From the NCBI GenBank assembly GCA_030428385.1, contig JAUIDY010000036.1:1-48227 (forward strand): a stretch of 48,227 nucleotides of DNA. Direction: 5' to 3'. Made by a program: the position numbers and the translations under genes. Under the pieces are notes generated by a model. The model had not been told where the DNA came from. It did not search any database and saw only the letters and a list, made by a program, of their open reading frames with translations. This document shows positions 13,296 to 32,498 of the stretch, one piece after another. Every line of letters starts with the position of its first letter. The stretch's first letter is position 1. Source of the stretch: Rhodothermia bacterium. Lineage in GTDB: Bacteria > Bacteroidota > Rhodothermia > Rhodothermales > JAAAOL01.

Positions 13296-13420
13296 TGGCT
13301 TGTTCACTACGCGTCCATGAAACGAACAGGGCACCAGGATCTCTTGGGATAGGGTGGTCCGTTGGTAGAACGCCTTTCTTTCGTTCAGAATAGCGCGAAT
13401 ATGGGGAGTGGGTCCCTCTG

Positions 13421-13486
13421 TCCCATCCCTGGCCTGTGCTGCCAGAAGAAGCCCATGCGTTGAATTGCGATCCACCTATCGGGTGT
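13421..13486. repeat. partial copy of the repeat found at 25169-25263
   Basis: The stretch matches 25169-25263: both contain GGCCTGTGCTGCC, then GAAGAAGCCC, then TTGAATTGCGA and GGGTnnnG. This copy lacks about 27 bases present in the other after the GTGCGTT/ATGCGTT point. With the rest of 13296-13492 it forms a gene-free stretch of about 200 bases before the terminator. Confidence 0.6.
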
Positions 13487-20717: not shown

Positions 20718-22205
20718 ATGTTTAGCCCACAACGAAGTTCTCGAAAGCATTTGCCCTCCCATACTGCTCTTTTCGTAAACCAGAGCATTGAATACTATGT
20801 AGTCACGGCCCTACTTGGCGTTTGTATTTCTACGGCTGTAGTCACTTCTTGCTTTAGTCAGTCTGTCGAAACGATTCTTTTCCCCTTGGATTGGGATACC
20901 CCAAGCGCCACAACAATCGATATCAGTAATCAAAGGGTCGCTGTTTATGCACCCACCGATTCCCTTAGAGGATTGTTGATATTTGAGAAAAACATGCATA
21001 GTTGGGTACAAACATCGAGCATTCCCAACTCGCAATGGGGGCAAATTAACGATGGTCGAATCGTCACACAATGGACAGAAGGCGATACAGCAGGTGTTTA
21101 TATCTATCAGTCGAATGGCGCAGATTGGTCAGAGGAAGCCCGATTTATCTCCGAGGAGTTCAATGATCCACCCTATGCCCTTTCCTTGGAGGGTAATCGT
21201 CTCGTAATCGGTGCCCCTCACGAGCACCTTGACGGGTTTTGGAGGGGAACAGTTCGAATTTTTGAGTTTGACGGAGAATCGTGGGTACAAACCACACAAC
21301 TCTTTCAAGAGCAGCCAGTGGATCAAGCATTCTTTGGATCAGGCGTTGCCCTCAACGGTGATCGCCTTGCTGTAGGTGCCCAGGGTGTTGAGAAAATTTA
21401 TTTATTTGAGCACAATGGGACGGAATGGATACACGTTTCAGAACTGGTTGGTCATGATGACACGAATGGATCTGGCTTTGGAGGCGGAATTGCTTTTGCA
21501 GGAGATTACCTTGTCGCCGGTGCTCCGGGACCAACTTCTCCCAAAAGAAATGGGGCCGCCTATGTTTTTGAACGAACCCCTACAGGCTGGCATGAAGCCG
21601 CAAAGCTGGTAGGCGATGATCTAGCTACTTCACTCTACTTTGGTTCGGACGTTTCGCTTAGTGGAGCGAGCCTTGCAATAGGGGCTAGAGGGCGAAGAGA
21701 ACACCCTCATGGTGCCGTTTATGTGTACTCCCGCCAAAGGGGTCATTGGGAGTTGACCGAGCGCGTGATACCGAGCGATGGAGCATATAATTTTGGCTCA
21801 TCTGTTGTTCTTGAAGATAATCTGTTGGGGGTTGTTGCATTTGCTACACTTGACTTATTGATGTCAGGAGTGACAGGGGCGGCGTACCTGTATGAGTTAG
21901 CTGAAATTTCCGTAGATACTGGATTACCTACTGAAAGCATTCCTGTCCCAATCCTTCATAACCCATACCCCAATCCTTCGTCGGGCAACACAGTCATTTC
22001 TTATCACCTTGCCGAGCCAGGACACATAAATCTTGAGATTTTTGATGTGTTGGGCCGACGCGTGAATACTCTCATTAATGAATTTCAATCTCTGGGTCTA
22101 CATCGGATAGAATGGAGAGGAGATAATTTGCCGCCAGGCATCTATTTCTGCCGCCTCAAAACACCAAATCAAACACTATCCCGAATAATTGTGCTGAGGA
22201 GATAG
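20718..22205 (+). CDS. secreted FG-GAP-like beta-propeller protein with T9SS sorting domain
   Basis: The 495-residue protein has an N-terminal signal or anchor region (YYVVTALLGVCISTAVV), then six or seven repeats of about 50 residues with the form GDRLAVGAQG, YLFEHNGTEW, GDYLVAGAPG and AYVFERTPTGW. Such FG-GAP/integrin-alpha-like repeats make beta-propellers. The last 85 residues (HNPYPNPSSGNTVISYHL to the end) are a T9SS type A sorting domain, so it is exported and surface-attached or released. It is unrelated in its tail to the YPNPFNPES group at 28-43 kb. Base composition is visibly more AT-rich than neighbours, consistent with horizontal origin. Confidence 0.85.
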   Translation: MFSPQRSSRKHLPSHTALFVNQSIEYYVVTALLGVCISTAVVTSCFSQSVETILFPLDWDTPSATTIDISNQRVAVYAPTDSLRGLLIFEKNMHSWVQTSSIPNSQWGQINDGRIVTQWTEGDTAGVYIYQSNGADWSEEARFISEEFNDPPYALSLEGNRLVIGAPHEHLDGFWRGTVRIFEFDGESWVQTTQLFQEQPVDQAFFGSGVALNGDRLAVGAQGVEKIYLFEHNGTEWIHVSELVGHDDTNGSGFGGGIAFAGDYLVAGAPGPTSPKRNGAAYVFERTPTGWHEAAKLVGDDLATSLYFGSDVSLSGASLAIGARGRREHPHGAVYVYSRQRGHWELTERVIPSDGAYNFGSSVVLEDNLLGVVAFATLDLLMSGVTGAAYLYELAEISVDTGLPTESIPVPILHNPYPNPSSGNTVISYHLAEPGHINLEIFDVLGRRVNTLINEFQSLGLHRIEWRGDNLPPGIYFCRLKTPNQTLSRIIVLRR

Positions 22206-23311: not shown

Positions 23312-24784
23312 ATGGCTTACGACTTTGATATGATCGTCATCGGTGGTGGTGCGGCGGGGCTCACGGCCTCGGGCATCAGCGCCAGCTTCGGCGCAAAGAC
23401 GCTGATGATCGAGCGGCACAAGTTGGGCGGGGATTGTACCTGGACGGGCTGCGTGCCGAGCAAAACGCTGCTGAAAAGTGCCAAGGTGGTCCACCAAACC
23501 CGCACCGCCAGCCACTACGGCCTCTTCGACCAATCGCCCACGTTCGACTTCGGCGCGATGATGCGGTACCTTCGTCAGATCCGCGAAGACGTGTATGACG
23601 AGGCCGACGATCCGAAGATTTACGAGGACATGGGGATCACGGTGCGAACGGGCAGCGCGGCGTTTGTAGATGCCCACACCATCGAGCTTACCGATGGCAA
23701 GACCACTGAGCGGATCAGCGGACGGTTTTTTATGATCGGGGCGGGAGCGCGCGCCTTGGTGCCCCCCATCGCCGGGCTCGATCAGGTGCCCTACCTCACC
23801 AACGAAACGCTCTTTGAGCTAAACGAACAACCCCGCCGCCTCGCCATCATCGGCGCAGGCCCCATCGGCAGCGAAATGGCGCAGGCTTTTGCCCGCCTTG
23901 GCTCGCAGGTGACCGTCTTCGACCGAGGGGACGGGCTTTTGCAGCGAGACGACCCCGAACTCACCCAGATGCTGCAACAGGTCCTCGAACAGGAAGGCGT
24001 GCGCTACCACTTTAACGCCTCGGTCAAGGCTGTACGCCAAATCGATGGAGGCATCAGCATAGAAGCCGAGGTGACGGGACAACGGCTCTACATCGAAGCC
24101 GATGCCCTGCTCCTCGCTACGGGACGTACAGCGAACGTAGACACGCTCAACCTTGACGCGGCGTGCGTAGCCTACACGCCACGCGGCATAACGGTGAATG
24201 ACCGCTGCCGGACCAACGTGCGCCATATCTATGCAGCGGGCGACATCACGGGGCGGTATCAGTTTACCCACATGAGCGAGCACATGGCGAAGGTGGCCGT
24301 GACCAATGCGATCCTCAAACTGCCTATGAAGATCGACGCCAAGCATGTGCCCTGGGTGACGTTTACCGATCCGGAACTGGGGCATGTAGGCGCGACCGAG
24401 CAGCAACTCAAAGAAGCAGGCACCCGCTACGCCGTGTACCGCTTTCCCTACACCAAGGTGGACCGGGCCGTTACCGAAAGCGAAGCGACAGGCTTGATTA
24501 AGGTGTATGCCAAGGCGTGGAACGGCAAAATCCTGGGCGTCGACATCCTGGGCACGAGCGCAGGCGAGTTGATCAGCGAATACGCCCTGGCGATGCGCAA
24601 CGGCATCACCCTGCGCCAGATCGCCGACACCATCCATCCGTATCCGACCTATGGCCTCGCTGTGCGACGCGCCGCCGACCAGTGGTACGCCCGCAAGCAA
24701 TCCACCACCTTCACGCGGCTGCTACAGAAAGTGTTTGGCTACCGGGGGCCTGTGATTGCGCCCGACCGCGACCGGATTGTGTAG
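23312..24784 (+). CDS. mercuric reductase-like FAD/NAD(P)-disulfide oxidoreductase
   Basis: The 490-residue flavoprotein has an FAD-binding start (DMIVIGGGAAGLTASGIS), the redox-active disulfide GGDCTWTGCVPSK at about residue 45, an NAD(P) motif IIGAGPIGSEMAQAFARLG near 185, a second FAD motif YAAGDIT near 305, and the C-terminal dimer domain ending in HPYPTYGLA. It lacks the N-terminal metal-binding domain and the C-terminal vicinal cysteines of true MerA, so mercury reduction is unlikely. It may reduce a disulfide or quinone-like substrate. Its final 14 coding bases recur at 25507-25520. Confidence 0.9.
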   Translation: MAYDFDMIVIGGGAAGLTASGISASFGAKTLMIERHKLGGDCTWTGCVPSKTLLKSAKVVHQTRTASHYGLFDQSPTFDFGAMMRYLRQIREDVYDEADDPKIYEDMGITVRTGSAAFVDAHTIELTDGKTTERISGRFFMIGAGARALVPPIAGLDQVPYLTNETLFELNEQPRRLAIIGAGPIGSEMAQAFARLGSQVTVFDRGDGLLQRDDPELTQMLQQVLEQEGVRYHFNASVKAVRQIDGGISIEAEVTGQRLYIEADALLLATGRTANVDTLNLDAACVAYTPRGITVNDRCRTNVRHIYAAGDITGRYQFTHMSEHMAKVAVTNAILKLPMKIDAKHVPWVTFTDPELGHVGATEQQLKEAGTRYAVYRFPYTKVDRAVTESEATGLIKVYAKAWNGKILGVDILGTSAGELISEYALAMRNGITLRQIADTIHPYPTYGLAVRRAADQWYARKQSTTFTRLLQKVFGYRGPVIAPDRDRIV

Positions 24785-24894
24785 CTTGGCGGAATGCTCC
24801 GTTTTATGTTGCCCTTTTTTTTTCGTCATGCCAGACCTCATGGATGTGATCTGGGATTATGGCACTTCCTCAATGCCGTGCTGAGGCAACACCT

Positions 24895-24974
24895 TCAGCC
24901 AAAGGAGTTGTTTGTTCTTTCAGGGACGAAAGAACCAAAGTCCTGCCGCCTCCGAAACGCACGAACCCCGATCC
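24895..24974 (+). repeat. 80-bp internal direct repeat R (left)
   Basis: It aligns without gaps to 25426-25505. Shared words include AGCCAAAGGAG, GGACGAAAGA and CTGCCGCCTCCGA. It contains the first hairpin of the element. Confidence 0.8.
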
Positions 24975-25425
24975 AACCCCACCTACTCCGTACCCAATGG
25001 GCACAATAGCCCTAGCATCTTACACGCCCCGGTGCTTCCCATTGGCTAAACGCACCGGGGTTCCACCCACCGCGCCCATGCCACGAAGGCGGCACCGGTG
25101 CTCGATGTCACTGCTCCGCCAACCGACATGCCTTTGAATAGCAGCCTTGTCCGCACGTGGCACCAGCGTCCCATCCCCGGCCTGTGCTGCCGGAAGAAGC
25201 CCGTGCGTTTAGCCGGTGGGCGAGCAGCACCGCGGCTATTGAATTGCGACGCGTGTGCCGCCCAGCGGGTACGGATCGTGTGTTGGACGGGCTTCGTGGG
25301 ATTGGATGGGACAAGGCGTTTGGTCCTTTCCGCTGTGAAAGGACACAAAACCAGCAAGCCCGCCGGTGGCCAATGAGCTTCTTAACGAGCACCCACTTCC
25401 TGAAAAGAACGCTAGGGCAACGACC

Positions 25426-25505
25426 CAAGCCAAAGGAGATGTTGGTTCTTTGAAGGACGAAAGAGCCAACGTACTGCCGCCTCCGAGGCGCACGACCCCC
25501 GACCC
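25426..25505 (+). repeat. 80-bp internal direct repeat R' (right)
   Basis: Partner of 24895-24974 at a constant offset of 531 bases. It contains the third hairpin and ends at the element's right boundary. Confidence 0.8.
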
Positions 25506-25529
25506 GGACCGGATTGTGTAACGGCTATC

Positions 25530-26947
<1,418 letters not shown>

Positions 26948-26951
<4 letters not shown>

Positions 26952-28694: not shown

Positions 28695-30230
28695 ATGAAA
28701 CATACGCTACCGTTCTTCTTGGCGTTGGCATTCGTATGCCTTGCCCTTCCGTTGCAAACGGCTCACGCCCAAGAGGATCCTTTGGATGGAGTCGATAATC
28801 CTGATTTGGGAACCACCGATTGTAGAAACCTCGACATCATGATTATTCTGGATGCTTCGGGGTCTATATCATCGCAAGAAGACGAATTTATCGGCGATGA
28901 AACCACCGGCCTGAGCGGTTTTCTCCGTGAGATTTCAGGAAACACCGTCGGTACCCAGTTGGGAATCGATCCCAATAACGTAAACAATAACGTCGCGATT
29001 GTGGACTTTGGCACCACGGCAAACCTTCGCTTCGGGTATACCGAAGTTGTTACCGGCGATGAACTAGACGACTTTGTGTGCACGACCCCCAGTACCCCGA
29101 CTACCCCGCTCGATCTAGACTGCTACCACTCATACCCCGACGGCGGCGATTCCTTTGACGGGTTTAACTATGCCTACACCAACTGGGAAGATGGATTCCA
29201 GGTAGCGATTGATCACATCAACTCTTTTTCGCCTGCCCGCTGGCCTGACTGGCTCATCTGGTTCACCGATGGCGGCCCCAACACCTCCAATGAAGGAGCG
29301 GGCGGCGGCACGGTGATGGGAGAGAACTGTGATGATGATCCGCTCAACCCCCCGGAATCTTACCAAGCGAACCAAGGGTGTGCAAATGACGCCGTGGACG
29401 AGGCTGATGAATTTAAGACGGGCGGCTCTCATCTCTTTGCCCTGCTTACGCCTCACCTTCAGTTCCCGGAAGCCATTCCCAACTCCACAGTTTATGCGGT
29501 CTCGGAAATAACCGGAACGTCATCCACGGTTTGGGATGAAACCACGGCCATCAATCTGCTTGTAGATGACTATGTCGCATTTTCGGGCACAGGAGCCTCT
29601 GGAGACGCCGCCGACGCCCTGCTTGCCGTGGGCGACGCCTGCAGCCAGACCGAACTGCCGGTGGAACTGGCCCAGTTTGAAGGCACCGTAGACGGTCAGG
29701 ACGTGCTCCTGCGATGGGGCACCCTCTCCGAAACCAACAACGCCGGCTTCGAAGTCCAACACCGCAGCCTCGACACCGCCAACAAAGCCGACTGGCAAAC
29801 CCTACACTTCGTCGACGGCGTCGGCACCACCATCCAGCCCCAGGACTACACCTTCCGCGCCTCGGGCCTCGCCCCCGGCACCCATACCTTCCGCCTACGA
29901 CAGGTCGACTACGACGGCGCCTTCGAGTACAGCCCCACCGTTGAGGTCATCATTGACCTGGCCGAGACCTTTATGATCGAGGCCGCCTACCCCAACCCGT
30001 TCAACCCCGAGTCGACGATGCGTTTCGCGGTGCAGCAGGCGCAGCACGTCGAGGTGGCCTTGTTCAACACGCTCGGTCAGCAGGTGCAGACGCTCTTCAC
30101 GGGCATGGCCGAGGCGGGCCAGATGCAGCAGGTGACGATCGACGGCAGCGACCTGCCGAGCGGGTTGTACCTCGTGCGGGTCGTGGGCGAGCGTTTCGCC
30201 GAGACGCAGACGATCACGCTGCTGAAATAG
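28695..30230 (+). CDS. secreted VWA-domain protein with T9SS sorting domain
   Basis: The 511-residue protein has a signal peptide (LPFFLALAFVCLALPLQTAHA), a von Willebrand A domain from about residue 45 with a metal-site DASGS (Asp53, Ser55, Ser57) in DIMIILDASGSISS and a later WFTDGGPNTS loop, a linker rich in acidic residues, and a C-terminal cassette of about 190 residues. The cassette starts LPVELAQFEGTVDG and ends in the T9SS type A domain (YPNPFNPESTMRFAVQQ). It is probably surface-exposed and adhesive or ligand-binding. The ATG at 28695 begins MKHT, like the next T9SS gene, and the cassette and downstream 500 bases are duplicated there. Confidence 0.9.
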   Translation: MKHTLPFFLALAFVCLALPLQTAHAQEDPLDGVDNPDLGTTDCRNLDIMIILDASGSISSQEDEFIGDETTGLSGFLREISGNTVGTQLGIDPNNVNNNVAIVDFGTTANLRFGYTEVVTGDELDDFVCTTPSTPTTPLDLDCYHSYPDGGDSFDGFNYAYTNWEDGFQVAIDHINSFSPARWPDWLIWFTDGGPNTSNEGAGGGTVMGENCDDDPLNPPESYQANQGCANDAVDEADEFKTGGSHLFALLTPHLQFPEAIPNSTVYAVSEITGTSSTVWDETTAINLLVDDYVAFSGTGASGDAADALLAVGDACSQTELPVELAQFEGTVDGQDVLLRWGTLSETNNAGFEVQHRSLDTANKADWQTLHFVDGVGTTIQPQDYTFRASGLAPGTHTFRLRQVDYDGAFEYSPTVEVIIDLAETFMIEAAYPNPFNPESTMRFAVQQAQHVEVALFNTLGQQVQTLFTGMAEAGQMQQVTIDGSDLPSGLYLVRVVGERFAETQTITLLK

Positions 30231-31358: not shown

Positions 31359-32498
31359 ATGAAACATACGATACTTCTTCTCTTCGTTTTACTTTGCCTG
31401 AGTCCCATTGTGACTCAGGCGCAAACCTGTGACCTTCCAGTTGGAACCCAGCTTACCGTCTTGGCAACGCCTGCTCGCGAAGGTGCGGGCGGCGTAACTA
31501 TTTCTTGCGGTGGACCCAAGACCTTTAACCCCGATGGAGCGATCGGGATGTGCCTTGACTTTAACCTCGACATCCCCGCCAACGGCCAAACCTACGAGGT
31601 AACCACTGCGGCAGGGGCGGGCCTTACTGCTACCGAAGCAGCCCGTATTGAGCGGATGCACGAGGCCTATATCGACCCCACCCTCACGGGTACCTACAAT
31701 GTGGCCCGCATCCTGTACTCCTTGCAACATGCGGTGTGGACCATTACTAACCCTGGCTTTACTTCTAGTTGCTCAGGACAGGTAGACACCAACGTGCGTG
31801 ATATTATCCTCACCGAATCTGATACGGGCGGCAGTTATACCGAACAAAACGTGTTATACCTGTTGCCGATTGGGGACCAAGTTGGCGAAGATCAACCATT
31901 CATTATTCCCTGCACAGGTGAACTGCCGGTGGAATTGGGCCTGTTCGAAGGCACCGTTGATGGTACTGATGTGCTCCTGCGCTGGGGCACCCTCTCCGAA
32001 ACCAACAACGCCGGCTTCGAAGTCCAGCACCGCAGCCTCGACACCGCCAACAAAGCCGCCTGGCAAACCCTCCACTTCGTCGACGGCTTCGGCACCACCA
32101 TCCAACCCCAGGACTACACCTTCCGCGCCTCCGGCCTCGCTCCCGGTACGCACGTCTTCCGTCTCAAACAACTCGACTATGATGGCGCGTTCGACTTCAG
32201 TCCCGAGGTGGAAGTTATCATCGACCTTGCCGAGACCTACATGATCGAGGCCGCCTACCCCAACCCATTCAACCCCGAGTCGACGATGCGTTTTGCCGTG
32301 CAGCAGGCGCAGCACGTCGAGGTGGCGCTCTTCAACACGCTGGGCCAGCAGGTGCAGACGCTCTTCACCGGCATGGCCGAGGCGGGTCAGATGCAGCAGG
32401 TGACGATCGACGGCAGCGACCTGCCGAGCGGGATGTACCTCGTGCGCGTGGTGGGTGAGCGTTTCGCCGAGACGCAGACCGTCACGCTGCTGAAGTAG
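31359..32498 (+). CDS. secreted thioester-domain-like protein with T9SS sorting domain
   Basis: The 379-residue protein has a signal peptide (ILLLFVLLCLSPIVTQAQ), a domain of about 160 residues, and the same 190-residue T9SS cassette as the VWA protein. The N-domain has GMCLDFNLDIPANG with Cys65 and YSLQHAVWTITN with Gln123. In thioester adhesin domains (TEDs) a Cys in a C-x-D context and a Gln in a Q-x-A/V-W context form an internal thioester that binds host or environmental amines. The pattern here is suggestive, not certain. Four other cysteines are present. It starts at ATG 31359 within an AT-rich leader. Confidence 0.75.
   Translation: MKHTILLLFVLLCLSPIVTQAQTCDLPVGTQLTVLATPAREGAGGVTISCGGPKTFNPDGAIGMCLDFNLDIPANGQTYEVTTAAGAGLTATEAARIERMHEAYIDPTLTGTYNVARILYSLQHAVWTITNPGFTSSCSGQVDTNVRDIILTESDTGGSYTEQNVLYLLPIGDQVGEDQPFIIPCTGELPVELGLFEGTVDGTDVLLRWGTLSETNNAGFEVQHRSLDTANKAAWQTLHFVDGFGTTIQPQDYTFRASGLAPGTHVFRLKQLDYDGAFDFSPEVEVIIDLAETYMIEAAYPNPFNPESTMRFAVQQAQHVEVALFNTLGQQVQTLFTGMAEAGQMQQVTIDGSDLPSGMYLVRVVGERFAETQTVTLLK

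Follow-up and report, generated by a model that had tools for sequence, protein, structure and literature searches.

The window, that is, the whole stretch of 48,227 nt analyzed here, contains a block of 723 bp that adjoins a flavoprotein gene (pyridine nucleotide-disulphide oxidoreductase, ending at 24784) and a convergent gene encoding a DctM transporter. Several proteins encoded in the window (20718–22202, 28695–30227 and 31359–32495) carry C-terminal sorting domains of the Por secretion system, consistent with a Bacteroidota host. The initial annotation had placed no gene in the block, and this was borne out: open reading frames of 103–110 aa had no Pfam match, were frameshifted or stop-interrupted in most other copies of the sequence, and varied equally at the three codon positions (76/73/68), based on which a coding potential of the block was ruled out. 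Rfam searches (Rfam 15) of the window and 13 related loci revealed nothing relevant, with no score near a family threshold, and a literature search with sequence strings of the repeat returned merely primer-like chance matches.

Architecture of the repeat

The block had been regarded as one 723-bp element. A repeat is present; however, profile searches revealed that its unit is an inverted pair of half-elements, A and B (Table 1). In the window, the non-coding repeat occupies 24862–25393 (532 nt) and is followed by a truncated second copy (25394–25506). Each half-element spans ~240 nt and contains one hairpin; A and B have diverged and are inverted relative to each other. When A was compared with the reverse complement of B, about 190 positions were aligned with an E value of about 1e-12 in the profile search. 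The outermost ~45 nt of the two halves (A 1–46, B 194–234) showed no inverted match to each other. Two direct repeats, previously described as 80 bp long, exist, although they extend over 112 nt at 78% identity (24863–24974 versus 25394–25505), with 86% identity in the best 78 nt. In differing surroundings the copies have sharp ends, with A starting at GCACTTCC, B ending at TTAACGAGCAC and isolated B copies starting at GGCACCAGCG.

Table 1. Coordinates of the repeat and neighboring features, given in the window unless another contig or locus is named.
Feature	Position	Strand	Basis
DctM transporter gene	25530–26951	minus	
14-bp direct repeat GACCGGATTGTGTA, left copy, in the tail of the flavoprotein gene	24770–24783	+	flank-repeat search
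14-bp direct repeat GACCGGATTGTGTA, right copy	25507–25520	+	flank-repeat search
Single-copy stretch outside the repeat, with a weak terminator-like hairpin at 24788–24803	24784–24861 (78 nt)	+	no second genomic copy
Half-element A, start GCACTTCC, end GGTGCTCG	24862–25104 (~243 nt)	+	nhmmer/blastn against ~21 A copies of the same genome; sharp ends
Half A hairpin, GTTCTTTC-AGGGAC-GAAAGAAC	24914–24935	+	one deviating cell in the stem across 16 A copies
Candidate pseudoknot, loop GGGAC (24923–24927) with 3' flank GTCCT (24940–24944)	24923–24944	+	
Central long stem, 5' arm, conserved block CCCATTGGCTAAACGCACCGG	25038–25058	+	inverted repeat; window of 96–99% identity across A copies
Central spacer between A and B (~55 nt)	25105–25158	+	alignments
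Half-element B, ~62% identity to the reverse complement of A, end CTTCTTAACGAGCAC	25159–25393 (~235 nt)	+	
Central long stem, 3' arm, conserved block CCCGTGCGTTTAGCCGGTGGG	25200–25220	+	
Half B hairpin, GTCCTTTC-CGCTGT-GAAAGGAC	25323–25344	+	
Incomplete second copy of half A (A', ~112 nt, 78% identity to A), with a decayed hairpin at 25445–25466	25394–25506	+	
Isolated half B fragment (42 nt, 93% identity) in an intergenic stretch	13420–13461	+	
GTAG-tagged REP-like hairpin GTAGGGGCAACCCCCCGTGGTTGCCC	L063: 1395–1430 (G000 C203, about 57755–57780); G000 C141: 94140–94165		

Because A and B are inverted, one A–B strand forms a long, imperfect hairpin from which two further hairpins branch off. 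This strand folds better than its shuffles (z −4.6 as DNA; z −6.0 and −4.3 as RNA), a surplus that is mainly due to the inverted halves. Divergence along A and B is uneven, with conserved 20-nt windows at ≤1% versus 33% elsewhere, and its variance between windows lies far beyond permutation; the conserved windows also contain few singletons. These patterns suggest that the copies remain constrained after insertion, or are homogenized.

Hairpins and covariation within the genome

The hairpin pattern matched the window four times at ≤3 mismatches in comparison to 0.4 matches expected, and four matches were reached in 0 of 100 shuffles. Three hairpins had been proposed, and two of them are perfect (24914 and 25323), whereas two mismatches are present in the third (25445): one breaks a pair, and the other gives a T·G wobble. 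The reported change of both arms from TT to CC and AA to GG is in fact the replacement of one T-A pair in one hairpin by C-G in another; with one compensatory pair in the window, the argument from paired changes to selection on structure was overstated. Across 22 half-element copies, six of the eight stem pairs are invariant and one covaries; the covarying pair differs strictly by half, A against B, and therefore represents a single event. Covariation among the copies of this genome is essentially absent, the pairs of the structure being mostly invariant, because the conserved blocks hardly vary. The loop of half A is complementary to its 3' flank over five pairs (GGGAC/GTCCY), with one G·U in the window copy and GTCCC in five copies; the corresponding pairing of half B is weaker. 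This complementarity is no more than suggestive of a loop/3'-flank pseudoknot in the half A copies of this genome.

Copies in the genome

When the block was compared by blastn with its own 6.19-Mb genome (G000), 38–47 matches were obtained in ~28 clusters on 21 contigs, and as several of them end at contig ends, the copy count is a lower bound. The halves are arranged as A-B (the window, L032–L036 and L038), as B-A (L037, L039, L041 and L044), as B-A-B-A (L031) or as single halves, and internal deletions were found in copies L038, L049 and L051. Distances among A copies and among B copies were uncorrelated across loci (Mantel r −0.49), so that spread as an intact A-B unit was not demonstrated. 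All sites of the repeat are intergenic where the gene context could be judged, with gene overlap in none of the 25 clusters examined by a simple codon-score gene finder. Nine of the 21 clusters with both neighbors lie between convergent genes, versus 4 of the 33 neighboring gene pairs in the window.

The 14-bp direct repeats reported around the block are present as claimed, 14 bp being the longest flank repeat. Among the 21 sites compared they occur at the window site alone, with no comparable target-site duplication at the 20 other sites, and target-site duplication was ruled out as a trait of the family (0/20).

Relatives in other genomes

The genome samples of the class and of the phylum were drawn around G000. 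Searches by DNA similarity, in which a couple of candidates were scored per genome, revealed no copy among 244 further genomes of the class, and the exact hairpin pattern, found 35 times in G000, was absent from all 239 other genomes of the class sample. No copy of the repeat was found in plasmids and phages, and two element-specific patterns had no match in viral contigs. A covariance-model search yielded two weak matches in the class. One of these, L121, was dropped because it lies in sequence that looks coding and lacks the arrangement of two hairpins; the other, L122, led to a family in Bacteroidota. The hairpin signature derived from L122, TTGTTCTTT-N(8-24)-AAAGAACCAAA, corresponds to the half A hairpin and was detected in 28 of 394 Bacteroidota genomes from 17 genera, with 0 for the reversed control; G000 itself has 16 exact matches (8–24 nt between the arms).

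The inner stem pairs of the relatives lie outside the fixed letters of the signature. Inner pairs 1–3 were Watson-Crick in 26/31, 28/31 and 26/29, versus 20, 12 and 10 after shuffling, and this covariation was repeated when viral contigs were added. Convincing covariation is thus confined to the comparison between genera. Furthermore, the loop of the relatives shows complementarity to the nucleotides that directly follow the hairpin at its 3' end, with letters that covary between them (CCTTGAC/GTCAAGG, CTTGACC/GGTCAAG, TCTTGAA/TTCAAGA, GCCTTGAT/ATCAAGGC and others). None of 2000 shuffles reached this complementarity, either for the genomes or for an independent collection of viral contigs. The viral collection includes chance matches of no relation, and there an upstream control equaled the downstream flank in mean match length, although it gave fewer matches of ≥6 (4 versus 7). 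The sequence covariation between loop and 3' flank in the relatives suggests a pseudoknot. Of 27 relatives, 10 had TTAACG, a motif also found at the end of half B, downstream of the hairpin, and 1 had it upstream. Because the hairpin signature and TTAACG, and tentatively the loop/flank pairing, are shared, the halves of G000 and the shorter Bacteroidota relatives likely form a common family, the homology outside the hairpin being based on short motifs. The long GC-rich halves are special to G000. Of the genes flanking the hairpin of the relatives (L140–L169, 28 genomes), 46 were antisense and 24 sense to the TTGTTCTTT strand, a weak bias in orientation.

A scan of 85,000 species genomes revealed similar multi-copy hairpins in unrelated lineages, which are probably convergent. 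Hairpins of the type TTTGGTTCTTTC...GAAAGAAC recur within single genomes of Clostridia and Alistipes (loci L083–L114), as in Oscillospiraceae SIG614 (L087, L106 and L109) and Alistipes MI.5_1 (L083, L094 and L102), and their flanks are unlike those of the window family. A GC-rich hairpin whose flank resembles half B was observed in a contig of Patescibacteria UBA2023 (L108: 5228–5299, nhmmer E 2.6e-6), a match that possibly reflects chance or transfer.

Search for a mobilizing enzyme

The genome of the window encodes a RAYT fragment (NF047646, 41 bits) on contig C203; the contig stops within the gene, so that its 5' side lies beyond the contig end. The 3' side is followed by a canonical GTAG hairpin, GTAGGGGCAACCCCCCGTGGTTGCCC, which differs in type from the hairpins of the repeat and occurs twice in the genome. 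Genes for Y1 transposases were present in 25 of the 28 hairpin-bearing genomes versus 245 of the 366 others; in the hairpin-bearing genomes, none of the 60 Y1 loci (260 kb) had the hairpin within ~2 kb. Mobilization by a RAYT is unsupported, given the different GTAG hairpin at the RAYT of this genome and the absence of the hairpin from the 60 Y1 loci, and the RAYT fragment is probably not the enzyme that recombines the repeat. No linked transposase was found.

Comparison with known repeats and alternative explanations

The repeat resembles REPINs and BIMEs (REP doublets; PMC3116915) in being non-coding, intergenic and multi-copy, and in its inverted hairpin pairs, its alternating mosaics and the long hairpin formed by one strand. 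As a mosaic it is ~7 times larger, its half-units span ~240 nt against 20–40 nt, no RAYT adjoins it, and it is present in tens rather than hundreds of copies, its ~28 sites being below the typical number. The GTAG-type tag is absent, the feet of the hairpin being TTTG/CAAA. The TIR repeats of TIRYT transposases and the atypical structures of the Bacteroidetes Y1 subclass 2.6 lack GTAG and lie beside a Y1 gene (PMC3733652, PMC6006769); like them, our repeat is repeated, partly self-complementary and non-GTAG, and one of these groups belongs to Bacteroidetes, but the lack of the hairpin at the 60 Y1 loci sets it apart from their descriptions. In CGTC-tagged palindromic repeats, CGTC is placed at one end of a stem-loop with a loop of 4–5 nt (PMC3733652). 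These share with our repeat a stem of 8–9 bp, inverted dimers, the lack of an associated transposase and reports from Bacteroidetes (PMC3733652); in contrast, the loop of our repeat has 6 nt, and CGTC is not terminal and spans stem and loop on a single strand in half A only. MITEs are likewise non-autonomous, with inverted arms and internal deletions; however, our repeat is larger, its extreme ends lack terminal inverted repeats and target-site duplication is not consistent. The repeat works like a REPIN/BIME mosaic, yet lacks the defining features of REPs, MITEs and CGTC repeats.

The window copy together with its 14-bp repeats could be explained as the insertion of one 723-bp element with a target-site duplication, as the repeats border 24784–25506 and, if the insert were removed, the flavoprotein stop codon and the convergent DctM gene would be separated by ~10 bp. 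However, the genome has no second copy of the 78 nt on the left, the block terminates on the right in a truncated half A, and such duplications are absent from the 20 other sites compared; we consider this explanation improbable. Because the 14-bp repeat is confined to the window, the left stretch is single-copy and the right end is truncated, a local event, in which a broken site was repaired or the sequence captured, is more likely here, which suggests that the 14-bp repeats do not reflect the usual mode of the family. It is similarly improbable that the family consists of classical MITEs, deletion derivatives of an insertion sequence with terminal inverted repeats that are moved by a DDE transposase: its long inverted arms, non-coding nature and internally deleted copies would fit, whereas the outermost ends of A and B that are not mutually inverted, the B-A arrangements and the restriction of target-site duplication to the window argue against it.

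A strict REPIN/BIME explanation, in which the hairpins are REPs recognized and moved by the RAYT of the genome (TnpA-REP, a Y1 HUH transposase), draws on the inverted pairs, the mosaics, the preference for intergenic and convergent positions, the RAYT fragment on C203 and the more frequent Y1 genes of hairpin-bearing genomes, and the Bacteroidetes Y1 subclass 2.6 provides a precedent for non-GTAG structures (PMC6006769). We nevertheless regard it as quite unlikely, given a hairpin foot without a GTAG/GTGG tag, the different, canonical hairpin beside the RAYT fragment and the Y1 loci without the hairpin. Somewhat less doubtful, though still unlikely, is a structured RNA, namely an H-type pseudoknot transcribed in 3'-UTRs or intergenic regions for mRNA stability or termination, the copies of which spread by chance or duplication and were retained for their function. 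The loop/flank complementarity, an A-rich linker, the covariation, the strong constraint on parts of each copy, the intergenic and often convergent position and the antisense excess among genes flanking the relatives are in its favor; in contrast, the mutually inverted halves leave neither strand special in the copies of G000, the neighboring genes are unrelated, there is no Rfam match, and the lengths of S1, S2 and the linker are tight for a classical pseudoknot. The structure could function either as RNA or as single-strand DNA.

The block had been read as a protein-free mobile element or structured RNA family; it is indeed dispersed, protein-free and hairpin-bearing, although neither movement nor an empty site was observed and covariation in the window is weak. 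On balance, we consider it fairly likely that the block is a copy of a non-autonomous, structured, non-coding, mobile intergenic repeat of the REP/REPIN/BIME kind, and we infer that its copies spread as DNA. Spread may proceed via a folded single-stranded intermediate, as proposed for REPINs and BIMEs, with a factor supplied in trans that would recognize the hairpin with its loop/flank pairing and would treat the inverted pair of halves as one unit; selection or gene conversion may then preserve the structured blocks of inserted copies. More tentatively, and with more doubt than confidence, the repeats could represent a phylum-wide group of Bacteroidota mobile repeats with a loop/3'-flank pseudoknot (in single-stranded DNA or RNA) and inverted pairs, the mover of which would not be Y1/RAYT.

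Repeats of this sort shape the intergenic regions of bacteria, interrupt assemblies and are mistaken for short genes. A family that has neither a GTAG tag nor a linked Y1 transposase, and whose structure is nevertheless kept by compensatory change across genera, points to an undescribed system of mobilization or maintenance in a major phylum, for which the pairing of loop and flank offers a direct and testable handle.
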